The position numbers and the translations under genes are program-made. The notes beneath the pieces are model-generated. The model was given only the letters and a program-made list of their open reading frames with translations. It was not told where the DNA came from and made no database searches. A stretch of DNA of 45,465 bases from a virus, in IMG/VR virus record IMGVR_UViG_3300025009_000176, positions 1 to 45,465 of that record; one strand, given 5' to 3'. Within the stretch, counting starts at the first letter, position 1. Every line of letters starts with the position of its first letter. Below are positions 1 through 45,465 of this stretch, piece by piece.

Positions 1-178
1 CCTCAACACGCATGTATAGTCATTTCAAACCGCGCTAATCCGCGCACTTAGCCGCGTGCGGCGTTATAGCGGCGCGGTTACGGCGCACTTGGCGCGCAGC
101 GTGCATCAGCGTTTGGCACGCCGCACAACGCGGCACCGGAAGCGCCCCGCCGGGACTCGGGGTGAACCAGGATCGAAG
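1..178. promoter_or_regulatory. Left-end non-coding leader
   Basis: No convincing gene lies before the ATG at 179; the open frames here on both strands are arginine/alanine-rich shadows. A TATAGT hexamer at 15-20 is close to a sigma-70 -10 box, but its -35 partner would fall off the left edge. The stretch holds repeated GCGCACTTRGC-type words (near 43 and 85) and ends in a hairpin leader (137-173) that recurs at 568-603. If the molecule is circular or permuted, it joins the palindrome-rich right end to form one control region. Confidence 0.4.
137..173 (+). repeat. Hairpin leader element, copy 1
   Basis: The word CGGAAGCGCCCCGCCG, then a short spacer, then CTCGGGGTGAA, sits directly before the ribosome-binding region of the gene at 179. 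CCCCG can pair with CGGGG to form a short stem. A near-identical element, differing at only a few positions, precedes the gene at 608. A shared post-transcriptional control is inferred. Confidence 0.55.
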
Positions 179-1272: not shown

Positions 1273-1500
1273 ATGCAGAACCACGCACCGAATCCGCTCA
1301 CTGCCGTGTCCGCGTGCACCAATCGCCGCCATCGGCGGCTCGCAGCGAAGCGCCGCCGCGCGGCGGTCACCGATCCCGCCCGGCTCGCGTACGCGCATCG
1401 CGAGGCGCGGCGTGAGTCCCGGCGTGCCGCCGGCGTGTGCCCGTGGTGCGGGTACCCGCCGCACGTCGGCGATCACGCGGCGTGTGCGGTGCGCGCGTGA
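1273..1500 (+). CDS. Small zinc-ribbon-like protein
   Basis: A 75-residue basic protein. The middle is dense in Arg (RRHRRLAAKRRRAAV); the C-terminus carries CPWCG, then H and C residues spaced like a treble-clef or zinc-ribbon half (C-x2-C-x4-H-x3-H-x2-C). Nucleic-acid binding is plausible. A TAGGAG ribosome-binding word precedes the ATG. The stop overlaps the GTG start of the next gene (GTGA). Confidence 0.55.
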   Translation: MQNHAPNPLTAVSACTNRRHRRLAAKRRRAAVTDPARLAYAHREARRESRRAAGVCPWCGYPPHVGDHAACAVRA

Positions 1501-2141
1501 GACCGCCCCCCGAGCCGGAGCTCGTGCGCCGCGTGCTCGAGCGTGTACGTGCGGGCGACTCGTTCCGCGCGATCGGACGTGACGCGGGCATCAGCGATTC
1601 GACGGTGCGTCGTTGGGCGCGCGACGCCGGCGCCGCACCCGCGCCGCCGCTGATTATGCGGCTCCCTCCGCCGCCGCTGAGCGACGACGTGCGCGCCGCA
1701 CTGCCGGCGGAGCTTGCGGCGCTCGCGGCCCGGCTCGACGCCGAGGGCGCGCGCGTGGTTCGCCGCGCGATCGACGCGCTCGCGGCCACACCGGATCGGG
1801 ATAGCGACGCACCCGATCCCACCGACGACATGCGAGGGTGGATGGTCCACCAGATCCGCCGGTGCGAGCACCGCCTCGCTGTCGCGGAGGTGTCGCAGAA
1901 CAGCATGGCGGTGAAGCAGGAATCGGCCACGCTAGAGAAGTGGGCCTCGTCGCTGCGACAGCTCGACAAGACTCGCGACACGGACGACATTGTGATCCCG
2001 CGTGGTGCGCTCGCGGAGCGCATGGCGCGGCTACGTGAGACGGTCTCGGCGCTCACTACGGATGCGCCGAGGTGCGTGGATTGCGGGCGCGCTATCCGCG
2101 CGTCCTGGGCTGACGATACGGAGGGCGACGATGGCGAATGA
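1497..2141 (+). CDS. Helix-turn-helix protein, candidate small terminase
   Basis: 214 residues from a GTG that overlaps the preceding stop. The N-terminus has a resolvase/HTH_23-type helix-turn-helix (GDSFRAIGRDAGISDSTVRR). A Pro-rich linker follows, then a long helical region (about residues 100-185) and a C-terminal CVDCGRAI knuckle. A DNA-binding HTH followed by a helical oligomerisation region is the usual layout of a phage small terminase subunit, and the large terminase lies about 0.6 kb away, though on the other strand. The alternative is a transcription regulator. The family assignment is inferred from layout and position. Confidence 0.5.
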   Translation: MRPPPEPELVRRVLERVRAGDSFRAIGRDAGISDSTVRRWARDAGAAPAPPLIMRLPPPPLSDDVRAALPAELAALAARLDAEGARVVRRAIDALAATPDRDSDAPDPTDDMRGWMVHQIRRCEHRLAVAEVSQNSMAVKQESATLEKWASSLRQLDKTRDTDDIVIPRGALAERMARLRETVSALTTDAPRCVDCGRAIRASWADDTEGDDGE

Positions 2142-2698: not shown

Positions 2699-4117
2699 CT
2701 ATCCTATCCCGATCCGGCGTGATCGCCCCGCGGAGCGCAGTTGCTTCGCGATCTTCGCGGCTTCGCGTATCGACGCGCCCACGTTCCGCGGCGTCACTAG
2801 GGTGACGTCGGCGATCTCACTCACGGCGAACACCGCCGCGTCGAGTCGGTTAGGCGAGCGACGTGTGCCAGGCTCCCACGTGGTCTGCTCGTGCTCGAGC
2901 CTCGCGAGCGTGCCGATGTGGTGCACTAGGCCGGCTTTGTACAACGCCGCCACCGGAGCCGCGCGGGTTTCCTTCGCGTGGTGCGACACGACCTCACGGA
3001 TGTAGATCGTCCCGGGCGATCGCGGAGGGAACGCGCGCGTCGGATCGGGTAGCACCTCGACGCGCAAGCCCGCGAGCTTCGCGTGCACCTTGATCAGATC
3101 CCGCGCGTGCTGGCCCACGTGGTTGCGCTCGACCACGACGCCGCTCGCGTCGCGTCGGCACTCTCGCACCACGACGCCCGCGTAATCCTCCGGCGACATC
3201 TTCGCGCTGAGATCCTCGACGTACACGTGACCACCGATGACGCGCGTAGCCCGCGCGATGCCGACTTCATCCGCGGTCCTATCTCCGCTGAGCGCGGGAT
3301 CGAGGCCGATCACGGTGATCAGCGGAGACACCGGTCGCGCGTCGACGCGATACGGATCGATCCAGTCCTGATCCCACAATGCGCCCGCCGCTTCCGTGAA
3401 CACGAGACCAAGGATCTCCTCGTCGTACGCGCGGGTGCCGCGGCCGTATTTGCGAACCTCATCGCGGATGTATTTTCGCGTTAGCAGCGGGTTGTCGAAC
3501 ATCGTGCCGCGCGTGAGGCGGTGCGCGCGCGGCGCGGCTTCGTGCTGCGCGATCAGCGCTTGGATGACGTCGTTCTTGCCGCGCGACGTGGTGTCCCACA
3601 GGTATTGCGGTCGTCGACCGACGCGGCACGCGGTGGTGATATCGCGATAGGCGGCCATGCGCGTCGACGGATTCCAGCGCACGAGCTCGGTCATCCACAC
3701 GAGATCGAAGTTCGAGCCGCTCGACGGGCGCTCGAGCTCCGCGCTCGTCGCCTCCGCTGTGACGCCGTTGGACCACCGTACGCCCTTGCCGTGCGCTTCG
3801 CACGGGCAGTCGATCCGCGCCGTGTCAATCAGCGCGGACGCCTGTACCTCCGCGACGCGGTCGACCGTCGGCGCGATCAGCGCCGGGGCGCGGCACTCGC
3901 CATCCGCCACGCGGCGGTTGATCTCCGCCGCGATGCCGAAAGTCTTCCCCCATCCGCGCCCCGCGACGTAGCCGCACGATCGCCAATCCCCGCGCGGCAC
4001 GCGCTGGTCGGGGCGTAGCGACAGCTCCGGCGCGAACGCGAGCAGCGCGAGCAACTCCGCCGGCACCGCGTCGATCGCGTCGCATAGCGCGAGCTCGTGC
4101 AGAGGTGAGACGCTCAC
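2699..4117 (-). CDS. terL: Large terminase subunit
   Basis: 472 residues from a GTG overlapping the portal stop (GTGA on the minus strand). It is the ATP-driven DNA packaging motor and headful/cos nuclease. Walker A is GRGWGKT (Lys58). The Walker B region is FDLVWMTELVRW, keeping Glu144 but with Thr143 where relatives usually carry Asp. The adenine-region motif GALWDQDWID precedes the RNase H-like nuclease with acids in VIGLDPALSGDRTADE, GVVVERNHVGQ and RLDAAVFAVSEI. The sequence resembles the terminase type of gene-transfer agents and many Mu-like phages. It runs opposite to the capsid genes, in a two-gene unit with the portal. Confidence 0.9.
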   Translation of the reverse strand: MSVSPLHELALCDAIDAVPAELLALLAFAPELSLRPDQRVPRGDWRSCGYVAGRGWGKTFGIAAEINRRVADGECRAPALIAPTVDRVAEVQASALIDTARIDCPCEAHGKGVRWSNGVTAEATSAELERPSSGSNFDLVWMTELVRWNPSTRMAAYRDITTACRVGRRPQYLWDTTSRGKNDVIQALIAQHEAAPRAHRLTRGTMFDNPLLTRKYIRDEVRKYGRGTRAYDEEILGLVFTEAAGALWDQDWIDPYRVDARPVSPLITVIGLDPALSGDRTADEVGIARATRVIGGHVYVEDLSAKMSPEDYAGVVVRECRRDASGVVVERNHVGQHARDLIKVHAKLAGLRVEVLPDPTRAFPPRSPGTIYIREVVSHHAKETRAAPVAALYKAGLVHHIGTLARLEHEQTTWEPGTRRSPNRLDAAVFAVSEIADVTLVTPRNVGASIREAAKIAKQLRSAGRSRRIGIG

Positions 4118-5730
4118 GCGGTGGGCGCCGCCGGCGCCGGTGCGGCCGCGATCTTCGCCGCGATCCACGCGTCGAGCTCAGGCAGCGTGAGGTCATCGCG
4201 CGCGTCGCCGAACGGCGGCAAGCCCTGCGCGCTTCGCGCCTCGCGCACGCGGACGACCTTCGCGGCGTCGGTGGGCGCGAGCGTGATCGTCGACGTTTGT
4301 TGATCGATCGCAGCGAGGCGTGGCGCTGGATCGACGCCAAGCTCCGCGGCGAGACGGTCGACGACGTCCTGCGTGACCTCGAGTTTCTGTTCGCGCATAG
4401 CCTTGATCGTGTCGGTGAGGCGCGTGCGGTTCTCGCTCAGCTCGGCGCGCTTCTTATCCCGATCCGGATCAGGCATCAGGAATCGCCACGCCGGTGAGTA
4501 ACGCGTGTCGCCGTGGTTGATCGCGGTCCAGGGCTCGTACAGACCGCTGAGTAGGCCCGCCTCGATCGCATTGAAGTCGCCTTGGAGCTTCGTCGTCGCA
4601 ACGTTGAACAGCGCGCTGATGTCCACGCCCGGCGCGCCGCCTACCGAGCCCAGCATCGCGTCCGTCCCGTTGTAGACGCGGGCCGCGGCCTTCTCGCGCG
4701 AGCCCACGTTCTCACTGAAGATCTGCCACGCGTTGCTCACGTCGCTGAGGAACGCGACCGTCGATCCGAAAGGCGACACGGTCACGAGCGAATCACCTTC
4801 GGCCATCTCGATCAGCGCATCGCGGAAGTCGGCGGCTGTGTCGGTGGGCTCCGCCGTGTCGTCCGTGATCGCATTGCCCTCCGGCATCGTGCCGTGAATC
4901 TTGCTTGATCCGTGGGAGCGGCTCGACGCTTGCCAGTCGCTAACGCCCTCGGCGTGCGCCGCCCAGATGAAGCCCGCGGGCAGCAAGCACGCGTCTTCGC
5001 GCCACGGCATGAACGCGTAGCGACGGAAGATGATCCACCGCCCGTCACCGTGCGTGATCGGTACGATCACGCCTTCGGCCGTTTGCGTCTCTAACGTCTC
5101 GGTGGCGGAGTTATAGCGCACGTGCTCGAGCGGCCACTCCGTGAGGCGCATGTCGACGCGGGTGCCGGCGTCGTCGACCTCGTGCTCTACGTAGCCGATC
5201 GCGATCGCGTGATCGACGAGCGTGCCTTCGATGCCCGCGAGCACAGTGCTCGCGACCTGCACGCTGGTGCGAGCTCGCGCCGCGATCGCGCGGCCGCGAT
5301 CACTGTCGTGCGCCTTGACCTCGCTTGCCACGGCGGAGATCGGCGCGACCCGGTTCGACCGCGCCGCGAAGATCGCGTTGTCGCGCCGCATCGCTTCGGC
5401 TAGACGCTTCGGCAGTCTGAATTGCCCGCGCATCTGCGCGTCCAGCGCGCCGCGGATCGCCGCGATCGTCCACGAGGTCGCGGTGTCGCGCGCTCGAGGC
5501 GGCCGCACTCGCGGCGCTCGTGCGAAGTCTTTCGCCGTGCGCACACGCGGAGGCACGCGGCGCAACGCCGTAGCGGTGACGGCGCTCACGCCATGCCCGG
5601 TGATCGCTCGCTTGACCGCAGACGGTGAGACGCCAGCGCGTCGGGCTGTGGCGCGAAGGCCCTCGTGATTCACGCGATCCTGGATCGCGCTGACCGTATC
5701 GGGTGGGAGTGTGTTCCGCATTGTTCGCAT
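4114..5730 (-). CDS. Portal-like protein with N-terminal HTH
   Basis: 538 residues. About residues 10-60 read as a helix-turn-helix (EGLRATARRAGVSPSAVKRA). A Pro/Arg-rich linker (PPRVRTAKDFARAPRVRPPRAR) leads to a long body resembling Mu gp29/DUF935-type portals (VRYNSATETLETQTAEGVIV, GDGRWIIFRRYAFMPWRE, WQIFSENVGSREKAAAR), ending in a helical Ala/Pro tail. Portals form the dodecameric DNA gate at the capsid vertex. The ATG at 5730 gives the HTH; a second ATG sits at 5721, and an internal ATG at 5433 could give an HTH-free portal. No good ribosome-binding site is visible. The HTH fusion is unusual. Confidence 0.72.
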   Translation of the reverse strand: MRTMRNTLPPDTVSAIQDRVNHEGLRATARRAGVSPSAVKRAITGHGVSAVTATALRRVPPRVRTAKDFARAPRVRPPRARDTATSWTIAAIRGALDAQMRGQFRLPKRLAEAMRRDNAIFAARSNRVAPISAVASEVKAHDSDRGRAIAARARTSVQVASTVLAGIEGTLVDHAIAIGYVEHEVDDAGTRVDMRLTEWPLEHVRYNSATETLETQTAEGVIVPITHGDGRWIIFRRYAFMPWREDACLLPAGFIWAAHAEGVSDWQASSRSHGSSKIHGTMPEGNAITDDTAEPTDTAADFRDALIEMAEGDSLVTVSPFGSTVAFLSDVSNAWQIFSENVGSREKAAARVYNGTDAMLGSVGGAPGVDISALFNVATTKLQGDFNAIEAGLLSGLYEPWTAINHGDTRYSPAWRFLMPDPDRDKKRAELSENRTRLTDTIKAMREQKLEVTQDVVDRLAAELGVDPAPRLAAIDQQTSTITLAPTDAAKVVRVREARSAQGLPPFGDARDDLTLPELDAWIAAKIAAAPAPAAPTA

Positions 5731-5769
5731 AGTGTAGCACGGTGAATAACGTGGGTCGCGACGATTGCC

Positions 5770-5798
5770 TTGACCGCCGCTATCCGTAATGGGATACT
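5770..5798 (+). promoter_or_regulatory. Sigma-70-like late promoter
   Basis: TTGACC (5770-5775), exactly 17 bases, then GATACT (5793-5798). This is a 5/6 and 4/6 match to consensus at ideal spacing. The predicted start falls near 5805, next to the ATG at 5807, so the first late mRNA could be leaderless. It lies in the divergent gap between the portal and protease genes. Confidence 0.6.
5781..5796. promoter_or_regulatory. Candidate operator over the late -10 box
   Basis: TATCC-N6-GGATA is a 16-bp inverted repeat overlapping the spacer and -10 box of the late promoter. The position is right for a repressor site that would control the late operon and perhaps the divergent portal/terminase unit. 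Confidence 0.4.
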
Positions 5799-5806
5799 TA
5801 CGCAAC

Positions 5807-6949
5807 ATGAGTCGCGTCACGTGCCATGCGTTATCGATCTCGCTGCCCGTGGAAGAGGGGAAGCCACCTCCGCGGGAGTTCCGCATTTTCGCGGCTGGCG
5901 TGAACGAGACCGACAAGGGCCCGATCGTGTTCAATGATGAGGCCGCCGCCGCCGTGATGGCGGAGTACACCCGCCGCGGGAATCGCATCGTGATCGATCT
6001 TGAGCACGATTCGATCAACGCGGCCGCTCGCGTTGCGCGCAATGATGCAGGCGACGCTCGTGCTCGGTGCGATCTTGCGGTGCGAGCTGGCCCGGAGCTC
6101 TGGGCCGTGAATGTCGATTGGACGCCCGATGGCGCCGATCGCGTGAGCGTTCGCCGGTCGCAAGATTCGATCTCGCCCGTGGTGTTCTTCGACAGTGAAA
6201 CACGCGTGGCTAAAGAGGTTTTCAATCTCGCCTTGGTCGCCCAACCGGCGATGCACAACGCCCCGTCGCTAGCCGCCGGGCGAACAATGGGAGTCCTATC
6301 GATGGATCCGAAGATCATACAAGAGGCGCTCGATGCGCTGATCGCAGGCGACACTACGGCGGCGCTCGACGTGCTCAAGGCGTTGGTCACCGAGGCCGCG
6401 ACCGGCGAGGCCGGCGCGACCGGTGAGGCTGACGCAGCCGCCGCGGAGTCGGCCGATCCGAAGCCTCCCGCTGCGCCCGGCGCGCCCGGCGAGAAGGACC
6501 CGGCAGCGGCGATGGCCGCTGCGCTGAGCGCTGCTCTTGGGATCACTGCCCGCGCACCGAGTGAGATCCTCGCCGCGGTCAAGACGTTGCAGACCAAGGT
6601 CGATGCGCTCGAGCTGTCGCGCTCGGCGGATGAATCGATCGAACGCGCAGGCCTCGTCGGCGAGCTCGTGAAGCTTGGCGTCGAGCTGCCCGCGACCGCG
6701 TGGGAGAATGCGGACAAGCGCGTCCCGGTGGTTGCGCTTCGCGTGATGCCGATCGCCGATCTCCGGTCGCGGGTCGCTGCGTTCCGCGCCGCACCGCGGA
6801 CGGCCGCTGTCGGCGTCCCGAAGCGCGCGATTCTCGACGTCGCTGCGCTGTCCGCATCGGAGCAGATGGCCGCCGAGGGGATCACCAATGAAGCCGCCCG
6901 CGCGCGATTCATCGCGATGCGTCTGGCGAAGAAAGCGAACGCCCAATGA
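5807..6949 (+). CDS. Mu I-like capsid maturation protease/scaffold
   Basis: 380 residues. The N-terminal half resembles phage Mu gpI-type proteases (REFRIFAAGVNETDKGPIVF, RIVIDLEHDSIN, VNVDWTPDGADRV, SISPVVFFDSETR, NLALVAQPAMH), which process head proteins. The C-terminal half is a Glu/Ala/Pro-rich, helical scaffold region ending MRLAKKANAQ. An upstream in-frame ATG at 5789 is less likely because it lies inside the spacer just before the promoter -10 box. First gene of the late operon; overlaps the next gene by 4 bases. It carries a nested scaffold start at 6302. Confidence 0.82.
   Translation: MSRVTCHALSISLPVEEGKPPPREFRIFAAGVNETDKGPIVFNDEAAAAVMAEYTRRGNRIVIDLEHDSINAAARVARNDAGDARARCDLAVRAGPELWAVNVDWTPDGADRVSVRRSQDSISPVVFFDSETRVAKEVFNLALVAQPAMHNAPSLAAGRTMGVLSMDPKIIQEALDALIAGDTTAALDVLKALVTEAATGEAGATGEADAAAAESADPKPPAAPGAPGEKDPAAAMAAALSAALGITARAPSEILAAVKTLQTKVDALELSRSADESIERAGLVGELVKLGVELPATAWENADKRVPVVALRVMPIADLRSRVAAFRAAPRTAAVGVPKRAILDVAALSASEQMAAEGITNEAARARFIAMRLAKKANAQ
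6302..6949 (+). CDS. Nested scaffold protein (internal in-frame start)
   Basis: An ATG at 6302, in frame with the protease, has a GGGAG ribosome-binding sequence at 6289-6293, 8 bases upstream. This is better than anything before the protease start. It begins exactly where the protease domain ends and would give a 215-residue scaffold (MDPKIIQEALDALIAGD...). Phage Mu makes its scaffold Z from within gene I in the same way. Production is inferred from the ribosome-binding site and precedent. Confidence 0.6.
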   Translation: MDPKIIQEALDALIAGDTTAALDVLKALVTEAATGEAGATGEADAAAAESADPKPPAAPGAPGEKDPAAAMAAALSAALGITARAPSEILAAVKTLQTKVDALELSRSADESIERAGLVGELVKLGVELPATAWENADKRVPVVALRVMPIADLRSRVAAFRAAPRTAAVGVPKRAILDVAALSASEQMAAEGITNEAARARFIAMRLAKKANAQ

Positions 6950-33757: not shown

Positions 33758-33787
33758 ATGGGATCGAAACGAGATAGATTGATATGA
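33758..33787 (+). CDS. Nine-codon leader ORF (MGSKRDRLI)
   Basis: ATG at 33758 with GGAGGACAAC upstream, the best ribosome-binding site in the area, opens a 9-codon frame. Its TGA (33785-33787) overlaps the ATG of the next gene (33784). The next gene lacks its own good site, so it appears to depend on translation of this leader. Confidence 0.55.
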   Translation: MGSKRDRLI

Positions 33788-34131
33788 CGCCGCGCGACGT
33801 CTACGCAACCGCGGAGTCGACCGCGCTGCGCGGTAGCGACCTCCGCGGGATCGACCTCAGCGGTAGCAACATGCGCGGGGCGGATCTCCGCGGGTGCGAT
33901 CTCGCCGGCGCGGAGTTCGACGGCGCCACGCTCACCGACGCGATCGGCCTCGCGGAAAGCGACGACTTCGTCGAGTTGCGCGAGGAGCACACGGACGCGC
34001 TGCGTGAGTGCGCCGAAGCAAAGGCCGCGCTCGCGGCGCTGATCGCCGCCGTGGACGCGATCGAACCGGAGGCCGTCGACTTTCCCGAGATGGCTACCGC
34101 GTTAGCTGCGGCGCGCGAGGCGGTGCTGTGA
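33784..34131 (+). CDS. Short pentapeptide and coiled-coil protein
   Basis: 115 residues. Residues 12-55 are about seven pentapeptide units (LRGSDLRGIDLSGSNMRGAD), then a helical coiled coil (EEHTDALRECAEAKAALAAL) and an Ala-rich tail. A second, smaller member of the pentapeptide family in this genome. Role unknown; DNA mimicry or protein docking are possibilities. Coupled to a 9-codon leader. Confidence 0.6.
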   Translation: MTPRDVYATAESTALRGSDLRGIDLSGSNMRGADLRGCDLAGAEFDGATLTDAIGLAESDDFVELREEHTDALRECAEAKAALAALIAAVDAIEPEAVDFPEMATALAAAREAVL

Positions 34132-36574: not shown

Positions 36575-37347
36575 CCACCAAGCTACGCCCCTTCTGGCGC
36601 TACTACGGGGGTAAGTGGCGCGCTGCTCCGCGCTATCCCGCGCCCGCGCACGGCACGATCATCGAGCCGTTCGCGGGCGCGGCGGGATACTCGATGCGCT
36701 ACCCGGACCGGCGAGTCGTGCTGATCGAACGCGATCCTATGATCGCGGAGACGTGGCGCTGGTTGATCGGCGCCTCGCGGGCGGACGTGCTCGCGGTCCC
36801 GCTGGTCGACGACACGCGCGACTTGCCTGCGTGGGTGCGAAAAGGCGCCATCAACCTAATAGTGCTACTGCTCAGCGAGGCTAGCGCGTCAGGCCCCCGG
36901 GGCCAGACGGTACAGAGCAAGCGGGTGACCAAAGGCGTAGCGAACGGAGAGCGCATGCGCGGGTGGGGGGAAGCCATGCGCGACCGCGTCGCGTCGCAGG
37001 TCGACGCGATCAAACACTGGACGATCATCGAAGGTGACTACACCGATGCGCCCAACGTCGAAGCAACGTGGTTCGTGGATCCACCGTACGACAATCGCGC
37101 CGGACGCGCGTATCGCTTCCACGACATCGACTACCCCGCGCTAGGTGATTGGTGCCGCACACGTCAAGGACAGGTGATCGCGTGCGAGAACGACGGCGCC
37201 ACGTGGCTTCCGTTTCGCCCTCTGTACAGCGTCACGACGCGAATGAACGGTGCTAAGGGCGAAGGCGGGCGCAAGTCCACCGAAGCGATCTGGACGAACG
37301 AAGACGACGCGCCTCGGGCGCACTACGCGGGAACGGAGACACGATGA
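36571..37347 (+). CDS. Dam-like N6-adenine DNA methyltransferase
   Basis: 258 residues. FWRYYGGKWRAAPRYP is the N-terminal K-W/Y-x motif; IIEPFAGAAGYSM is the SAM-binding FxG motif; WFVDPPYDNRAG contains catalytic DPPY (Asp170 to Tyr173). This is the Dam class (D12). It could protect phage DNA from host restriction or mark DNA for packaging. Target not deducible from sequence. Next gene overlaps its stop. Confidence 0.85.
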   Translation: MTTKLRPFWRYYGGKWRAAPRYPAPAHGTIIEPFAGAAGYSMRYPDRRVVLIERDPMIAETWRWLIGASRADVLAVPLVDDTRDLPAWVRKGAINLIVLLLSEASASGPRGQTVQSKRVTKGVANGERMRGWGEAMRDRVASQVDAIKHWTIIEGDYTDAPNVEATWFVDPPYDNRAGRAYRFHDIDYPALGDWCRTRQGQVIACENDGATWLPFRPLYSVTTRMNGAKGEGGRKSTEAIWTNEDDAPRAHYAGTETR

Positions 37348-37946
37348 CCACCAAACTACGTATCGACGATGAGCTGCGCGCGTTCATTCCGGCGCTCAGC
37401 GCGGAGGAGCGCGACGCTCTCGAGCGCTCGCTGATCGAGACCGGCCGCGCGACCAATCCGATCACCGTGTGGCGAGGCACGATCCTCGACGGGCACCACC
37501 GCTACGAGCTGTGCACGCTGCATGGTCTGCCGTACGACGTGATCGACCTCGGCGCGAGCATCGCCGACCGCGACGCCGCCAAAGCGTGGATGTTCGATCA
37601 CCAGATCGCGCGGCGGAATCTATCGCGCGATCAGATCATCGCGCTCGCCGCGCTGCGCGGGGTGGCGATGCCGGCGGGCGTGCGCAGCGCTATCGCGACA
37701 TGCGAGAGCGCGATCGATATGGCCGCGCACGACGAGGGCCGCGCTCTGCTCGAGCGGGTGCTCCGCGGGGAGCGCACCATGCCGTACGCGGCGAACGATT
37801 GGGCCCGCCGCGACGCCCCGCGACGCCCCGCGCAGACGCGGCGTACGCGCGTGCAGATCGCGCTAGACGGCGTGCGCGAGATGAACGCGAAGGACTTCGC
37901 CGCGTTCACCGAGGCGTTCGTCGAGATCGCGGAGGCCCGGCAATGA
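37344..37946 (+). CDS. ParB-like domain protein
   Basis: 200 residues. NPITVWRGTILDGHHRYELC is the ParB/sulfiredoxin-type G-H-R pocket (residues 49-53), which binds nucleotides and in some members cuts DNA. Helical remainder (MFDHQIARRNLSRDQIIALA, DGVREMNAKDFAAFTEAF). It lacks an obvious DNA-binding HTH. Phages often carry such proteins beside methyltransferases. Function uncertain. Confidence 0.7.
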   Translation: MTTKLRIDDELRAFIPALSAEERDALERSLIETGRATNPITVWRGTILDGHHRYELCTLHGLPYDVIDLGASIADRDAAKAWMFDHQIARRNLSRDQIIALAALRGVAMPAGVRSAIATCESAIDMAAHDEGRALLERVLRGERTMPYAANDWARRDAPRRPAQTRRTRVQIALDGVREMNAKDFAAFTEAFVEIAEARQ

Positions 37947-38665
37947 CCCGCGAGGAACGCAACCGCCGCGATCGCGAGCGAGCGCGCGAGCGCCGCGCCG
38001 ACCCCGCGATCCGCGAGGAGAAGAACCGCCGCCAGCGTGAGCGCCTCGCCGACCCCGCGATCCGCGAGGAGATCAACCGTTGCATGCGCGAGCGCCTCGC
38101 CGACCCCGCCTACCGCGAGGAGATCAACCGCCGCCAGCGCGAGCGCCTCGCCGACCCCGCCTACCGCGAGGAGATCAACCGCCGCCAGCGCGAGCGCTAC
38201 GCCGACCCCGCCTACCGCGAGGAGATCAACCGCCGCCAGCGCGAGCGCTACGCCGACCCCGCCTACCGCGAGGAGCAGAACCGCCGCAAGCGCGAGCGCC
38301 TCGCCGACCCCGCCTACCGCGAGGAGCAGAACCGCCGCAAGCGCGCTCGCGAGCGCATCGCCGACCCCGCCTACCGCGAGGAGCAGAACCGCCGCAATCG
38401 CGAGCGCCGCGCCGACCCGGCGATCCGTGAGCGCGAGAACCGCCGCGCTCGCGAGCGCTACGCCGCGAAGCGCCGCGCCGACCCCGCCTACCGCGAGGAG
38501 CGCAACCGCCGCAGGCGCGAGCGCCGCGCCGACCCGGCGATCCGCGAGGAGAAGAACCGCCGCGATCGCGAGCGCCAGCGCGAGCGCCTCGCCGACCCCG
38601 CGATCCGCGAGGAGATCAACCGCCGCGAGCGCGAGCGCCGCGCCGCGAAGAAAGGCACCCGATGA
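37943..38665 (+). CDS. 12-copy ADPAYREE repeat protein (Arg/Glu-rich)
   Basis: 240 residues. After a short basic lead, 12 near-identical 17-residue units with consensus R-x-ADPA-(Y/I)-REE-x-NRR-x-RE follow, some carrying 2-5 extra residues. Units 3-6 are almost identical. Opposite charges alternate as in single alpha helices, with ADP as helix break. No enzymatic motif exists. It could bind DNA or RNA along its length or act as a spacer; neighbours are ParB-like, methyltransferase and phosphoesterase genes. Repeats of this general kind occur beside HNH and DNA-binding domains elsewhere. I do not know its role. Confidence 0.7.
   Translation: MTREERNRRDRERARERRADPAIREEKNRRQRERLADPAIREEINRCMRERLADPAYREEINRRQRERLADPAYREEINRRQRERYADPAYREEINRRQRERYADPAYREEQNRRKRERLADPAYREEQNRRKRARERIADPAYREEQNRRNRERRADPAIRERENRRARERYAAKRRADPAYREERNRRRRERRADPAIREEKNRRDRERQRERLADPAIREEINRRERERRAAKKGTR
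37991..38635 (+). repeat. 51-bp tandem repeats of the ADPAYREE gene
   Basis: About 12 units of roughly 51 bases with very high identity (shared core GCCGACCCCGCCTACCGCGA). Spacing is uniform except for four insertions. There are no spacers between copies, so it is not a CRISPR array. Confidence 0.9.
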
Positions 38666-39765
38666 CACCGATCGAACGACTCCGAAGGCTCACCACCGCG
38701 CGCACGGCGTCGCCCGCCGCGCCGCCCACCGCGCCGCCCACCGCGCCGCCGCGCCCAACCCTCGACGAGCAGCGCACCGCGAACCGCGACCGCGCGGCCG
38801 CGAGCGACGCCCGCCGTGATCTCAAGCGTGCGCTCGAACGCATCGACGACCTCGACACGACGGTGCGCGCGTACGAGCGATACACCTCCGAGCCGATCCG
38901 CCCGGTGCCGCCGGCGGTGCTAGCGATGACCGGCGGCCGCCGCGTCGCCGCCGCGGTGGCGATGCTGAGCGACGTCCACGCCGAGGAGCGTGTCGACCGC
39001 ACCGACGCGATCGATAACGAGTACTCGCTCTCGATCGCGCAACGCCGCGTAGCCCGCTTCTTCGCGGGGCTGGTGTGGCTCGTGCAGCACAACTCCGCGG
39101 CGTTCGACATCGGCACCGTGGTGGTGTGGCTCGGCGGCGATCTGATCACCGGTGACATCCACGACGAGCTGCTCGAGCGCGCGGAGGTGCCGCCCGGCGA
39201 AGCGACGATGATCGTCCGCGACTGGATCGTCAGTGGCCTGCGGTACCTGCTCGCGGAGCTGCCCGACGTGACGGTGCTAGTGCCGTGCTCGATCGGCAAC
39301 CACGGCCGCACCACCAAGCGAATGAACGCAGCTACGGGCTACGGGCATTCGTGGGAGTGGCTGCTCTATCAGATGATCGGCCGCGACTTCGCGAACGAGC
39401 CGCGCGTACAGATCCACACGACTCGCGATGAGATGCAGTATCTATCCGTGCTCGGATATGAGCTCGCGTTTCACCACGGGCACCGGCTGCGATACAATGG
39501 TGGCATCGGCGGCCTCACGATCCCCGCGATCAAGGCGATGCACCGCTGGTCACAGTGGCGAGATTGCGACTACTATCACTTCGGGCACTTTCACACGTAT
39601 TCGCCAGACATAGCGTCAATGACGTTCAACGGTTCGGTGATCGGCCCGAATCCGTACGCGTTCGCGATCGGCGCCAAGCCGGAGCCTCCGCAGCAAGCGT
39701 TCTACTTGCTCGACGCGAAGCGCGGGAAGACGGCGATGCACCCGATCTGGGTAGGTGAATCATGA
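38662..39765 (+). CDS. Calcineurin-like metallophosphoesterase
   Basis: 367 residues. Pro/Ala-rich and helical N-terminal 90 residues; then LSDVHAEERV (Asp104, His106), LGGDLITGDIH (Asp160), SIGNHGRTT (Asn213-His214), FHHGHRLRYN and FGHFHTYSP, the full binuclear metal set. It may process DNA ends, nucleotides or cyclic nucleotides, as phage MPEs do; substrate not visible. Starts in the stop of the repeat gene (ATGA). Confidence 0.82.
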   Translation: MTPIERLRRLTTARTASPAAPPTAPPTAPPRPTLDEQRTANRDRAAASDARRDLKRALERIDDLDTTVRAYERYTSEPIRPVPPAVLAMTGGRRVAAAVAMLSDVHAEERVDRTDAIDNEYSLSIAQRRVARFFAGLVWLVQHNSAAFDIGTVVVWLGGDLITGDIHDELLERAEVPPGEATMIVRDWIVSGLRYLLAELPDVTVLVPCSIGNHGRTTKRMNAATGYGHSWEWLLYQMIGRDFANEPRVQIHTTRDEMQYLSVLGYELAFHHGHRLRYNGGIGGLTIPAIKAMHRWSQWRDCDYYHFGHFHTYSPDIASMTFNGSVIGPNPYAFAIGAKPEPPQQAFYLLDAKRGKTAMHPIWVGES

Positions 39766-40166
39766 ATGCCACCGTTCCCGCCCCGCTACCGCCTAACCGA
39801 AGGGCACTCGATGCCGCCGCGTGCCCTGAGTGTGGCGGTTACGACGCTGACGAATGCCCTTGGTGCGACCCCCGACGCGCCACGGCGACCAAGCGCGACC
39901 ACGGCAAACGCCGCTGGTCGCTCGTGCCGTGGGCGGCGCTCGGTGACGCGGTGGACGTGCTCACCGCCGGCGCCGCGGAGCACGGAGACTTCGGCTGGCG
40001 CGACCTCCCGAACGCTCGCGAGCGGTACTTCGACGCGCTCCTACGGCACCTCACAGCGTGGTGCGACGGCGAGCGCATCAACCGCGACAGCGGACGCGCG
40101 CACCTCGCGCACGCTCTCGCGAACGCGATCATTCTCGCGGCGCTCGATCGCGAGGTAGACGCATGA
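39762..40166 (+). CDS. dATP/dGTP pyrophosphohydrolase-like protein
   Basis: 134 residues. N-terminal CPECGGYDADECPWC is a zinc ribbon. The helical body (DAVDVLTAGAAEHGDFGWRD, RERYFDALLRHLTAWCDGER, RAHLAHALANAIILAAL) matches the DUF5664/dATP-dGTP pyrophosphohydrolase N-terminal family with conserved His and Glu/Asp. It would lower specific dNTPs, often linked to modified bases. Next gene overlaps its stop. Confidence 0.65.
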   Translation: MNATVPAPLPPNRRALDAAACPECGGYDADECPWCDPRRATATKRDHGKRRWSLVPWAALGDAVDVLTAGAAEHGDFGWRDLPNARERYFDALLRHLTAWCDGERINRDSGRAHLAHALANAIILAALDREVDA

Positions 40167-41434
40167 GCACATCGATCGTGATCGCCAGTGACTCGCTCGA
40201 CGTGCTGCGACAGCTCGACGCGGCGACGTTCGACGCGGTGGTGTGTGACCCGCCCGCGGGCGTGGCGTTCATGGGCCGCGCGTGGGATAGCGCGCGCGGC
40301 GGGCGAGACGCGTGGATCGAGTGTCTCGCCGCGATCATGCGCGAGGCGTGCCGCGTCCTGCGACCCGGTGGGCACGCGCTCGTGTGGGCACTACCGCGGA
40401 CGTCGCACTGGACCGCGATGGCATGCGAGAACGCGGGCTTCGAGATCCGCGACTCGATCTCGCACATGTTCGGTAGCGGATTTCCGAAGTCGCTCGACGT
40501 GAGCAAAGCGATCGACGCCGCCGCGGGCGTGACGCGTGAGGTCGTGGGGCGCCACGCGCACCCCGCCACGAGCATCCACACGCAAGGCGCGAGGACACTG
40601 CCGCTAGACGTCGACATCACGACCGCCGCGACCGCCGACGCGCAGCGCTGGTCCGGATGGGGCACCGCGCTAAAGCCAGGGCACGAGGTGTGGTGGCTGT
40701 GCCGAAAGCCGCTCGCGGGCACCGTCGCGGCGAACGTGCTCGGGCATGGCACTGGGGCGCTGCACGTGGACGCGTGCCGGGTTGCAAGCGACACGCCCGC
40801 CGCGACCGTCTACGGCGGCGCGAAGGGTGGTGGTGGTGTATTCGGTACTAGCTCTAAGTACACGACGGAGCCACACGACGTCGGCCGCTGGCCGCCCAAC
40901 GTCGTACTGACGCACTCAGGAGCGTGCACCGACGCGGCGTGCGCGCCGGACTGCCCCGCGCGAGCGCTGGGCGCCGCCGCCCGCTTCTACCCGACGTTCG
41001 ATCCCGACCCGATCGGGATAGAGCCGTTCGTGTACGTCGCCAAGCCGAGCACGCGCGAGCGCGAGGCCGGATGCGAAGCGCTTCCCGCGCGCGCGGCCGC
41101 GGAGCTCGTCGATCGCACCGCGGATAGCGCGGGCATGTCGTCACCGCGGGCCGGCGCCGGACGCACCGCGACCGCGCGTCACAACACGCACCCCACGGTC
41201 AAGCCGATCGCGCTCATGCGGTGGCTGGTGCGGCTCGTGACGCCCCCCGGCGGCGCGGTCATCGATCCGTTCGCGGGCAGCGGGACCACAGGGTGCGCGT
41301 GTGCGATCGAGGGCTTCGACTTCGCGGGGATCGAGCTCGACCCGGCGCACGTCGCGATCGCCCGAGCGCGCATCGCGTGGCACACGGCACACCCGACCGC
41401 GTTCGATCGAAAAGCGAAGCGCGATGCCGCGTAA
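40163..41434 (+). CDS. DNA methyltransferase (N4/N6 class) with DPPA motif
   Basis: 423 residues. Motif IV is DPPAGVAFMGRAWD (Asp29 to Ala32), an alternative to DPPY known in phage methyltransferases; motif I is VIDPFAGSGTTGCACAIEGF followed by GIELDP near the end, so the order is IV before I (beta class). NTHPTVKPIALMRWLV is the TRD-end signature common in this family. Two methyltransferases in the genome imply layered modification. Target sequence unknown. Confidence 0.82.
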   Translation: MSTSIVIASDSLDVLRQLDAATFDAVVCDPPAGVAFMGRAWDSARGGRDAWIECLAAIMREACRVLRPGGHALVWALPRTSHWTAMACENAGFEIRDSISHMFGSGFPKSLDVSKAIDAAAGVTREVVGRHAHPATSIHTQGARTLPLDVDITTAATADAQRWSGWGTALKPGHEVWWLCRKPLAGTVAANVLGHGTGALHVDACRVASDTPAATVYGGAKGGGGVFGTSSKYTTEPHDVGRWPPNVVLTHSGACTDAACAPDCPARALGAAARFYPTFDPDPIGIEPFVYVAKPSTREREAGCEALPARAAAELVDRTADSAGMSSPRAGAGRTATARHNTHPTVKPIALMRWLVRLVTPPGGAVIDPFAGSGTTGCACAIEGFDFAGIELDPAHVAIARARIAWHTAHPTAFDRKAKRDAA

Positions 41435-43469
41435 CGCGACGATCACAGTCTACCGCGGCGCGCGCAACGCCGTGCCGATCGCGCGCGATGAGCTATCGTG
41501 GGACGCGTTCGTCGCGGAAGTCGAGGCGCTGTGTCGCGAGGAGGACCCCGCGACCGACAAGCGCGACCTCGTGGCGTTCGGGCCGTACCGGCTCGCGCCC
41601 GGCACCACCCGCGCCGCGGACAACGTCGAGGCGATGAGCGCGATCGCGATGCTCGACGTGGATCACGAGGTCGACCTCGGCGCGCTCCGCGAGCGCATCC
41701 GCGCGCTCGGCGTGGCGGCGATCGTCCACGGTTCACCGAGCGACGACGAAGCCGGCGATCGCCGTGTGCGTGTGTACGTCGCCCTCGACGATGAGCACGC
41801 ACCGAGCGACGCCGGACGCGTACGCCGCGCGGTCGCGGAGCTGCTCGGTGTGTGCGACGATCCGGCGACACACAACGCCGACCGGATCGGGTTCGTCGGG
41901 CGCCTAGCCGGCACCGCGCCGCGGTACGTCGAGCGCTTCGACGGAGCGCCGATCGCGCTCGCAGCCGTGCGGGATTGCGCCGCTTTCGGGGCATCGCGAC
42001 CGGTATCCGGATCGGGCGAGAATCCCGCGCCGATCACACGGCCGACCGCCGCGAACGACGCGGCCGCCGCGGCGATCGTGGGCGCCCTCGGACCCGCCGC
42101 GGGGTGGGCCGGCAGCAAGCACCGCGTGGTCGGAGCGCTCGGCGGGATCTTGCGCAAGTGCGGATGGCCTCGCGATGTCGCCGGCGAGCTCGTGCGCACG
42201 TGGATCGCGAACGACGCGCGCGACGTGGACGCGGGTGTGCGATGGGCGACCGCGGCGTGGGATCGCGAGGCGTCGGAGGTGAGCGGCCGCCAAGCCTTAG
42301 ACGCCGTGGTCGGCGCCGACGTGGGCCGCGTGATCGAGGAGTGCGCGCTGCTTCCGTGGCGTGCTCGCGGTGCGGCCGCACCGGACGCGGATCGCCCGCC
42401 CGCTATCGACGCGGGCGACTACGCTACGCTGCGCCGCGTTCGCCTCGACGTGATGCCGCCGCCGATGCGCTACGTGGTGCCGGCGCTCGAGCTGGCGCCG
42501 GGGAAGGTGTCGGCGATCCAGGGCTTCGCGAACGCGGGTAAGACACCGTTCGCGCTCGTGCTCGCGACGTGCGTCGCCGCGGGGATCGACTTCCTGGGGA
42601 TGAGCACCGTGCGCACCTCGGTGGCGTACTTCGATCACGAGGCCTCCCCGCTCACGCAGGAGCGCGCTATCCGGATTCGGTGCGGGCTAGGCCTCGATGT
42701 CGCGCCGGCGGGGCTGCACCTTTTCAACGCCGAACCGTTCAGCTTGGCGCTAATCGCCGACGCGCGGCAGGCGATCGCCGATCACCAGATCGGGATGATC
42801 GTGATCGACACGTACAGCTCCGCGCTGCCCGACGACGGAGGCTCATTCAACGACTCAACGTTTCGCTCGTGGGCCACCGCGCTAGGCCGCATGAGCGCGG
42901 AGCTCGACGTGGTGGTCGTGATCCTGCTGCACGAAGCTAAGACCGGATCGGGACTGCGCGCTATCAGCGGCCACGGCTCACTCGCTGGCGCGCTACAGGC
43001 GGCGATCGCCCTGACGCACCCAGACGAGGAGGACGTCGCCCGTGTGCGCGTGTCGTGCGCACGCGCCACGCGCAAGGGATTCGCCCCGTTCGACGTGGTG
43101 TGGTCGGACAGCGAGGACGCGACCGCGCCCACCGGCGACGCGCTAGTCGCTACGCGCGAGGCCGCCGCCGCACCCGCCGTGACGGCGCCCGCGGCGGCGC
43201 GCAACGCCCGCGCGATCGCCGACACCCGCACTGCCGGCGAGGCTATCATGCGCAGCGCCCCACGCGGCGTGACTGTGCCGCGTAGCGAGCTGATCGCCCT
43301 CGGCGGCGAGTCGCGCGCGGCGTGTGTGCGCGCGATACAACGGCTTGTTGCGGCGGGATTGATCGCGTACTCTCCGCCCGCGGCGTACGGCGTGTCCGCC
43401 GCGGGCGCGACGGCGGACGCTCTCGCGATCGCCACCGCGCTAGGCGCGGTCGGTGGGTTCCAGCGCTAG
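41424..43469 (+). CDS. Primase-helicase (AEP primase plus RecA-type helicase)
   Basis: 681 residues, start 11 bases inside the preceding gene. Residues 60-130: MSAIAMLDVDHEVDLGALRE, with Asp78 and Asp80, then VHGSPSDDEAGDRRVRVYVA, resemble the AEP/PrimPol catalytic D-x-D and H. About residues 360-540: FANAGKTPFAL (Walker A Lys373), IGMIVIDTYSSAL (Asp462) and VVILLHEAKTGSG match RepA/DnaB-type AAA_25 helicases. C-terminal wHTH-like region. Together they make primers and open the replication fork. Its stop shares a CTAG with the stop of the opposing gene. Confidence 0.8.
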   Translation: MPRNATITVYRGARNAVPIARDELSWDAFVAEVEALCREEDPATDKRDLVAFGPYRLAPGTTRAADNVEAMSAIAMLDVDHEVDLGALRERIRALGVAAIVHGSPSDDEAGDRRVRVYVALDDEHAPSDAGRVRRAVAELLGVCDDPATHNADRIGFVGRLAGTAPRYVERFDGAPIALAAVRDCAAFGASRPVSGSGENPAPITRPTAANDAAAAAIVGALGPAAGWAGSKHRVVGALGGILRKCGWPRDVAGELVRTWIANDARDVDAGVRWATAAWDREASEVSGRQALDAVVGADVGRVIEECALLPWRARGAAAPDADRPPAIDAGDYATLRRVRLDVMPPPMRYVVPALELAPGKVSAIQGFANAGKTPFALVLATCVAAGIDFLGMSTVRTSVAYFDHEASPLTQERAIRIRCGLGLDVAPAGLHLFNAEPFSLALIADARQAIADHQIGMIVIDTYSSALPDDGGSFNDSTFRSWATALGRMSAELDVVVVILLHEAKTGSGLRAISGHGSLAGALQAAIALTHPDEEDVARVRVSCARATRKGFAPFDVVWSDSEDATAPTGDALVATREAAAAPAVTAPAAARNARAIADTRTAGEAIMRSAPRGVTVPRSELIALGGESRAACVRAIQRLVAAGLIAYSPPAAYGVSAAGATADALAIATALGAVGGFQR

Positions 43470-43867: not shown

Positions 43868-44196
43868 GACGTCACCGCGAGCGCGGCGTCGATCGCCCGA
43901 CCGATCAGCGCCTTGCCGAAATCGCACCCGGGCCACGGCGTGCGCTCCTGGATCTCGCGCACCAGTCCGGATCGGATCACCAGCAGTGCCGCCCTACGCT
44001 CCGCACGCGCGGCCGCGATCGCGGCGTCCCGGGCGGGCAACGGGCCCTGGTCATCGGCAGGAGCGAGCTCCCGGCTCGACACCCAGATATCGCCGTCATG
44101 CAGCCGCACCCGGGCGTCGGTCATGGCCGGCCCCAGCGGCTCCCACGCGGTCACGACGCCGAGCTCGCCGCGGAATCGCACTACGCGGCCGATCAC
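43864..44196 (-). CDS. Hypothetical protein, minus-strand operon
   Basis: 110 residues from GTG overlapping the winged-helix gene stop. Beta-rich front (VIGRVVRFRGELGVVTAWEP, DARVRLHDGDIWVSSRELAP) like a small barrel (Tudor or KOW-like), then a helical half. Not recognised. An upstream GTG at 44211 is less likely because the overlap start matches the operon pattern. Confidence 0.5.
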   Translation of the reverse strand: MIGRVVRFRGELGVVTAWEPLGPAMTDARVRLHDGDIWVSSRELAPADDQGPLPARDAAIAAARAERRAALLVIRSGLVREIQERTPWPGCDFGKALIGRAIDAALAVTS

Positions 44197-44588
44197 GACG
44201 TCACCGCCCACCGCCCGTCACGGAGCACCGCGAGGCCGGAGCCGCGGAGCGACGCCAGCGCTCGCGACGTCGCACGGGACCCGCACGCCACGCGAGCGCG
44301 CAGCTCCTGCTCCGTGAGGCCATCGGGCGCCTCGACGAGCGCATCCACGATCGCGTCCCGGGCGGTCGTGGTCGCGGCTGCCGCGGCGGCCGCGCGGGTG
44401 GCGTTCGCCCCCGCTCCAGCGGGCGCCGCCGCGTCGAAGCGCGCGCTCGCCGCCACGACGCGCCGATACGCCATCGATATCGCCGAGCCGCGGGGTAGCG
44501 GTCGACCGCGAGACACCGTCGCGTACGCGCGGCGGCACAGCGTGGTGAGATTGCTCAGGGCGTCGAGTAGATCGTCTTGGTCGCTCAT
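44193..44588 (-). CDS. Winged-helix regulator candidate
   Basis: 131 residues. A very good ribosome-binding site AGGAGG is 6 bases before the ATG. Acidic helical start (DQDDLLDALSNLTTLCRRAY), an Ala/Thr linker and a C-terminal winged-helix-like region (IVDALVEAPDGLTEQELRAR, SRATSRALASLRGSGLAVLR, DGRWAVTS). The wing strand L-A-V-L-R-D-G-R-W fits. As the first gene leftward from the right-end control region, it is a candidate early repressor or activator. Confidence 0.6.
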   Translation of the reverse strand: MSDQDDLLDALSNLTTLCRRAYATVSRGRPLPRGSAISMAYRRVVAASARFDAAAPAGAGANATRAAAAAAATTTARDAIVDALVEAPDGLTEQELRARVACGSRATSRALASLRGSGLAVLRDGRWAVTS

Positions 44589-44696
44589 CCGGTACCTCCT
44601 AGGTCAGGGTCGCCGGATGCACTCCGCGTGCCTACGTAGCGAGGGGCGAGCGGCACCACTCCGCGGGACCCCGTGTGCATATGACCGCCCGTGTGC

Positions 44697-44737
44697 GAAA
44701 GATCAACGATCACAACTACTTACGCCAGTGCGCCTTG
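44697..44737. repeat. Direct repeat, copy 1 (GATCAACGATC / CTACTTACGCC)
   Basis: AAGATCAACGATC (from 44699) followed by CTACTTACGCC (44716-44726) recurs 110 bp to the right with few changes. It lies within 150 bp of the winged-helix start, so an operator or iteron is likely. Confidence 0.6.
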
Positions 44738-44806
44738 TGTTTCACACACTTCCATTTACAGTGTACCCTAAGGGTGCCGATGGGCTGAGGCGTGCAACCG
44801 GCATGT

Positions 44807-44847
44807 AAAAGATCAATGATCTTCGCTACTTACGCCCGCTGTGCCTC
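44807..44847. repeat. Direct repeat, copy 2 with 15-bp palindrome
   Basis: AAGATCAATGATCTT (44809-44823) is a perfect palindrome with a single central base, then CTACTTACGCC at 44826-44836. Both words are exactly 110 bp from copy 1, close to a whole number of helical turns. Confidence 0.6.
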
Positions 44848-44873
44848 GGTGTCCCGAGCACCGCAGAGCCGCG

Positions 44874-44914
44874 CCCCCTAGGGGGACCCCCTTAAGGGGG
44901 CCCCCGGGGGCGGG
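44874..44914. other. Alternating C5/G5 palindrome block
   Basis: The stretch reads C5-TA-G5-A-C5-TTAA-G5-C5-G5-C-G3. It contains perfect palindromes CCCCCTAGGGGG and CCCCCTTAAGGGGG, and four G-runs that could fold as a G-quadruplex. It could also act as a strong terminator in front of the minus-strand operon. Confidence 0.75.
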
Positions 44915-44920
44915 CGCGAG

Positions 44921-45169
44921 CTATGCCACGGTGCGCGGCGTGTACCGTGGGCACCACGCGGTGGCGATCGGATCCCCGACGACGCGGTGCCACCGGCGCC
45001 CACCCGGCACCCCGCAGGTAAGGCACCGCCGTCGCGCGTGGCGGGGTCACGGTGCCCGTTTCGCCGCGAGGTGTGGTCCTTGGACGTCTGCGATCGAGGG
45101 CTCCGCCGTGGCCCCGTCTAGCGCCAGCACGGCGCGATCGTGGTTATCCCCGGTGATTATCGCGTATGG
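44921..45169 (-). pseudogene. Broken zinc-ribbon-like gene
   Basis: One minus-strand frame reads ITGDNHDRAVLALDGATAEP..., is interrupted by TGA at 45047-45049, and resumes as RRRCLTCGVPGGRRWHRVVG with DPIATAWCPRYTPRTVA before TAG at 44921. The part after TGA has a zinc-ribbon C-x2-C ... C pattern, and the part before looks ordinary. No start codon is visible just after the TGA. A gene decayed by one stop, or a frame-matched coincidence, are the options. Confidence 0.35.
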
Positions 45170-45173
45170 TCAC

Positions 45174-45206
45174 TGCACTATATGACCACGCGTGACACGT
45201 AGTGCA
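45174..45206. repeat. Inverted repeat TGCACTA ... TAGTGCA
   Basis: Two 7-base arms separated by 19 bases. Between them is TATGACCACGCGTGACAC. Possibly a protein-binding site in the right-end control region. Confidence 0.45.
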
Positions 45207-45246
45207 TTGTCATCGGTTGTCACTGTACGGATCGGCGGCCGTCGCG

Positions 45247-45270
45247 CACCATGACACGGCGATCATGGTG
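45247..45270. promoter_or_regulatory. Palindromic operator-like site A
   Basis: CACCATGA-N8-TCATGGTG, with 8-base perfect arms. Read on the other strand, its 22-base core matches the site at 45396-45417 at 20 positions, and the site at 45327-45348 at about 16. Confidence 0.55.
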
Positions 45271-45326
45271 AGCTTTCCGCAGTGATTACGCCCGCTTAGC
45301 CCGGTGTGCGCGTCACGCGGCCGCGC

Positions 45327-45348
45327 CGCATGATCTCGGTGTCATAGC
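45327..45348. promoter_or_regulatory. Operator-like site B
   Basis: A diverged copy sharing CATGATC, then GTGTCAT with the same spacing as sites A and C. Confidence 0.4.
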
Positions 45349-45395
45349 GGGTAATCGCTAGCCGTTACGCGTGCTTAGCGCGAGACGCTGCGCCT

Positions 45396-45417
45396 ACCAT
45401 GATCGCTGTGCCATGGT
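45396..45417. promoter_or_regulatory. Operator-like site C
   Basis: ACCATG-N10-CATGGT. Nearly identical to the complement of site A, so the set is oriented head to head around the middle of the region. Confidence 0.5.
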
Positions 45418-45465
45418 CGACCCCCTCGCGGCGGGGTATACGCCCCCCGGCACGGCCTTCCACGA

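Follow-up and report, generated by a model that had tools for sequence, protein, structure and literature searches.

Related palindromic sites near the probable cos-type ends of a myovirus-like phage genome, with candidate roles in packaging and regulation

The cos site of phage lambda is organized as cosQ-cosN-cosB and includes the IHF site I1. Its cosB contains three R sites (R3, R2 and R1) bound by the small terminase subunit TerS, R2 being inverted relative to R3 and R1 (PMC4669245). In lambda, cleavage by terminase, carried out by TerL, takes place 47 ± 2 bp from its R site (a title cited in PMC4856287), and cosQ, which lies across the cut from the R sites, is required for termination (PMC4856287, PMC4669245). 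Phage N15 has a simple cosB with one R3 and an inverted, distant rR2. Arrays of related short sites near the right genome end also occur in cluster A mycobacteriophages, as repressor sites and stoperators. Here, we compare with these systems the right-end region of a metagenomic phage genome (IMGVR_UViG_3300025009_000176), the whole of which, 45,465 bp and classed as linear by IMG/VR, will be referred to as the window. The initial annotation had described three related palindromes in this region as a repressor, partition or origin binding set. Protein sites in a right-end control region do fit our data and partition is poorly supported, but a probable physical cos-type end, which that annotation had not seen, makes packaging the leading candidate role.

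The window encodes a Mu-type portal protein, a large terminase subunit (TerL), contractile-tail and baseplate proteins, a family A DNA polymerase, helicases, a clamp-like protein and methyltransferases. Three relatives from other metagenomes (G001, G002 and G003) are collinear with it, and their core proteins are approximately 45-70% identical. Among 50,697 phage records, the polymerase yielded distant matches at most and the putative capsid protein none. A fifth contig, L041 (DYPH01000112.1), carries a TerL with 66% identity and is binned as Sorangium cellulosum, which is a weak hint of a myxobacterial host. Several single features were also recorded. The Mu-type portal domain covers only residues 503-826 of a 932-aa protein (4114-6912, minus strand), whose long N-terminal part is without a family match. 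A pentapeptide-repeat protein (33784-34131) weakly matches the effector-associated domain EAD2, and 39762-40166 encodes a dATP/dGTP pyrophosphohydrolase-like protein. The aminoadenine (Z) genome suggested by the latter was rejected, as PurZ was found in none of the four genomes. Finally, positions 37501-39000 combine a strong AT skew (0.35) with the highest GC content of the window (74.5%).

Oriented alike, the four collinear contigs, all from separate metagenomes, begin with CCT at the left end (positions 1-3 of the window); a further contig, G009, starts with TCTC followed by a block similar to that of the relatives. On the right, the window, G002 and G003 all extend 26 nt beyond a conserved GGGG(G)TAT, and G001 is about 10 nt shorter than these after GGGGATAT. 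In L041 the right and left ends are joined, reading GGGGGTAT, 29 nt and the left-end block. A tandem repeat array of the CACGGTCCC type was also observed in L041 immediately next to the junction. Shared start and stop positions together with the joined ends of L041 argue for fixed packaging ends that are joined in the cell rather than for chance assembly breaks. Fixed unique ends, as in a lambda-like cos site, are thus indicated indirectly by comparing the contigs, and ends joined in replicating or circular DNA are apparent in one relative, L041, not in the window itself. No repeat shared by the two contig ends was detected; the complementary single-stranded overhangs of a lambda-like cos site are lost or filled in when libraries are prepared. 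The window is probably a complete myovirus-like genome with packaging (cos) ends, which would be produced by terminase.

Constant contig ends, together with the match of the portal protein to Portal_Mu, might also point to a Mu-like phage, the palindromes being transposase end-binding sites and the contigs ending at the phage/host boundary. We give this idea almost no weight, as no rve (DDE) transposase reached the cut-off in the four genomes, whereas control genomes were positive in the same search. Moreover, a full set of autonomous replication genes is present, and the joined ends of L041 largely refute it. Tyrosine integrase and serine recombinase likewise did not reach the cut-off.

Two constant elements mark the ends. 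Counting both strands, the four genomes contain six copies of CACTTAGC, each of them within 250 bp of an end, compared to 0.1 expected. In the left-end element CTAATCCGCGCACTTAGCCG (35-54, plus strand), CACTTAGC starts 45 nt from the end of the window; the corresponding distances are 45 nt in G002 and 44 nt in G003, and G001 is without a left-end copy. Its position thus fits that of an R site in three of the four genomes, with TerS as the putative ligand. A pattern search with the left-end block plus CACTTAGC returned 51 matches, at a contig start solely in the known relative G003. On the right, the family-conserved element TGATTACGCCCGCTTAGCCC (45283-45302, plus strand) is followed by a second right-end element with the core TTACGCGTGCTTAGC (45362-45381, plus strand; CTTA at 45374). 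The conserved GGGGTAT (45433-45439, plus strand), 26 nt before the right end, is cosQ-like by position.

Like lambda cos, this locus has a short block of conserved sequence about 26 nt from the right end and, following an A+T-richer stretch, a repeated element about 45 nt from the left end. Repeated sites of mixed orientation and an HTH-containing small terminase gene near the end are further shared features. The locus differs in that palindromes lie on the right-end side, whereas lambda R sites are found solely on the other (left) side, in that CTTAGC boxes are present on both sides of the cut, and in that TerL is transcribed toward the end; the sequences themselves are unrelated. With the simple cosB of N15 it shares one well-placed left-end element and further, partly inverted copies, but here the extra copies lie across the cut and are interleaved with the palindromes.

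The three right-end palindromes proved to be real. Site A (45247-45270, minus strand) is a perfect 8-8-8 palindrome, CACCATGA-CACGGCGA-TCATGGTG, with arms CACCATGA-N8-TCATGGTG, and site C (45396-45417, plus strand; ACCATGATCGCTGTGCCATGGT) has outer arms that are perfect over 6 bp. A and the inverted C are identical in 20 of 22 bases in opposite orientation, as the initial annotation had claimed, whereas the best inverted 22-mer among 200 dinucleotide-shuffled versions of the rightmost 876 bp reached 18 and never more. Site B (45330-45345, plus strand; ATGATCTCGGTGTCAT) had rightly been called diverged: its symmetry is restricted to the inner ATGA/TCAT, and it shares the asymmetric inner sequence, fitting the consensus ATGATCnCnGTGnCAT exactly. 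Perfect copies of ATGATCnCnGTGnCAT occur exactly three times in the window, in A (45251-45266, minus strand), B (plus) and C (plus); as the consensus was built from these sites, the independent tests are the shuffles. Allowing up to three mismatches, a 19-mer gave four matches compared to 0.33 expected, a number reached in none of 100 shuffles. An exact pattern search of IMG/VR with the palindrome yielded three unrelated lone matches, none of them clustered. A-C, located 48 to 218 bases from the apparent cut DNA end, are a non-random, binding-site-like cluster.

This cluster is larger than first described. An additional palindrome, TGGTCACTGCACTATATGACCA (TGGTCA-N10-TGACCA; 45167-45188, strand not assigned), and further TGTCAY half-sites in the region 45192-45223 (at 45192 on the minus strand, at 45208 and 45218 on the plus strand) had been missed. 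Five of the 28 TGTCAY copies of the window are packed into 154 bp (45192-45345), for which the Poisson probability is approximately 6 × 10−8 before and 2 × 10−5 after correction for the choice of window; judged by this distribution, A and B are part of a wider TGTCAY cluster. From 45138 to 45465 the order is low-GC stretch, TGTCAY half-sites, A, CTTAGC, B, CTTAGC, C, GGGGTAT and end. The low-GC stretch (45138-45227, 50% GC) is the second lowest 90-bp window of the genome and adjoins the array. The centres of A and B both lie 36.5 bp upstream of the CTTA of the next CTTAGC copy, and C is without CTTAGC at this spacing. Since the consensus in A is inverted relative to B, simple duplication of a unit fails to explain the equal distances. 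An Rfam scan of the right-end region gave no credible match, and a tRNA search found none.

Such an arrangement might also represent a replication origin, with palindromes and half-sites acting as iterons for the helicase-primase (41301-43469) and the low-GC segment 45138-45227 as melting site. The replicative helicase-primase gene is only 2-4 kb away, the low-GC segment adjoins the site cluster, and a strong hairpin at 44868-44920 is conserved in G001. Nevertheless, we consider an origin rather unlikely: the right-end region has no GC-skew extremum, the sites do not form a series of direct iterons at even spacing, and in G003 similar boxes flank the cut on either side.

The hairpin itself, which is very stable and contains the conserved GGGACCCCCTTAA (z −4.3 in the window and −5.0 in G001, L021 725-825, minus strand), is found downstream of a CTTA element in both genomes. 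It could be a terminator, a structured RNA or extruding DNA. Nearby, a 29-bp direct repeat, AAAGATCAAYGATC..CTACTTACGCC, occurs at 44698-44726 and 44808-44836 (83% identical, 110 bp apart) and resembles the CTTAC-type elements of G001. Positions 44692-44781 form the lowest-GC 90-bp window of the genome.

The relatives separate two kinds of elements: CTTAGC and GGGGTAT are constant, whereas the palindromes drift. A-C are weakly conserved, with one copy carrying two mismatches in G001, about 300 bp from the right end, and none in G002 and G003. Their distance from the cut varies among the relatives. In G003, TGTTAC palindromes are present to the left and to the right of the cut, and G002 has a few boxes. 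In the terminal 800 bp pooled over the family, 18 TGTYAY words were counted compared to 3.1 expected, an enrichment that is partly due to base composition, as the ends are non-coding and the background is mostly coding.

Our preferred, though tentative, reading is that A-C belong to a recognition array that flanks cos and serves the phage packaging complex. The CTTAGC boxes, whose left-end copy is separated from the cut by about 45 nt, and GGGGTAT, placed 26 nt before the right cut, would be terminase recognition and termination elements, acting like the R sites of lambda cosB and like cosQ, respectively. A, B and C together with the nearby TGTCAY half-sites would be bound by a dimeric HTH protein, either TerS or a phage accessory factor, and this protein might form a nucleoprotein complex with the CTTAGC boxes that positions terminase on joined concatemer ends. 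The sites and their statistics, the conserved layout of the ends and the spacing shared by A and B were observed as such; end formation by terminase, the identity of the protein binding A-C and a role of this binding in packaging are what we infer. In favour of packaging, a probable TerS with an N-terminal HTH (1500-2141, plus strand), conserved in the relatives, and TerL (2699-4168, minus strand) adjoin the end, and A and B share the 36.5-bp CTTAGC spacing despite their inversion. A Foldseek search with the predicted TerS model gave no significant whole-chain match, but short matches to HTH regions only. The weak conservation of A-C argues against this role, as TerS is conserved. So do the restriction of the lambda R sites to the other side of the cut, the missing left-end CACTTAGC and shorter right end of G001, and the lack of CTTAGC at the A/B spacing from C.

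Ranked nearly as likely is a function in transcription, which we consider a serious possibility. According to this proposal, A-C are operators or activator sites, and the CTTAGC elements serve, wholly or in part, as promoters that read rightward across cos. The joined ends would constitute a divergent, non-coding control region of about 1 kb between the leftward right-arm and the rightward left-arm genes, with A and B about 40 bp upstream of CTTAGC elements; the 36.5 bp from their centres to CTTA is an activator-like distance. This region also contains the two 90-bp windows with the lowest GC content in the genome. In G003, TGTTAC boxes precede the first gene of each arm by approximately 110-190 bp, and the CTTA elements are directed at these genes. 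The best-scoring CTTA element of G001 (L021 6400-6440, minus strand), 6.4 kb inside the genome, stands directly upstream of a lone, oppositely oriented gene in a promoter-like context, which packaging does not explain. On the other hand, no sigma-70-like promoter was found, although this type may not be that of the host; in the window and G001 the CTTAGC copies are oriented away from the genes of the right arm, and a constant distance between CACTTAGC and the physical left end is unexpected for a promoter. A T7-like promoter was also considered for CTTAGC and rejected, with no match to a T7-type RNA polymerase in the window; as the control genomes gave none either, this does not prove its absence.

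Nor was a confident repressor gene found. The small ORF at 44193-44588 (minus strand, 131 aa), annotated initially as a winged-helix protein, is a candidate regulator with a weak winged-HTH match: its hits are a PHROG transcription regulator (E 0.01) and Pfam HVO_A0261_N (E 0.0013), and a single-sequence structure model of low confidence is all-helical. It has no relative in IMG/VR and no clear one in G001. With about 660 bp between its start codon and site A, simple autoregulation via A-C is unlikely. In comparison to the cluster A mycobacteriophage arrays, the sites described here are confined to the end and palindromic, and neither a repressor nor an integrase was found.

The initial annotation had also named a ParB-like protein at 37344 as a candidate ligand. 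The ORF at 37344-37946 does match ParB-like profiles, but weakly, and parS-like sites of a ParB-type partition system are very improbable. No ParA-like match was obtained among the proteins scanned, so that the combination of a ParA ATPase and a ParB with centromere sites that defines ParABS was not found. Lytic phages commonly carry ParB-like ORFs near methyltransferases, which we counted against partition as well.

A bolder proposal, to which we assign a low probability, is a two-sided cos of an undescribed family, in which the right-side palindromes, held at a fixed spacing of 3.5 turns from the terminase boxes, would couple packaging to transcription that crosses the joined ends; the specificity of the palindromes would diverge from relative to relative, and the terminase box would remain constant. 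The mechanism of the cluster itself would be of a familiar kind in a phage family that is undescribed. The location of the cluster is reinterpreted as cos-proximal, with packaging and regulation as its candidate functions. Both the window and the related contigs probably represent complete genomes whose ends are defined, and they provide a packaging signal that can be tested in a phage family with no close match among the phage records searched. Across the four termini, elements that stay constant (CTTAGC and GGGGTAT) can be told apart from quickly changing palindromes, and it is this pattern of constant and changing elements that decides packaging or regulatory specificity.
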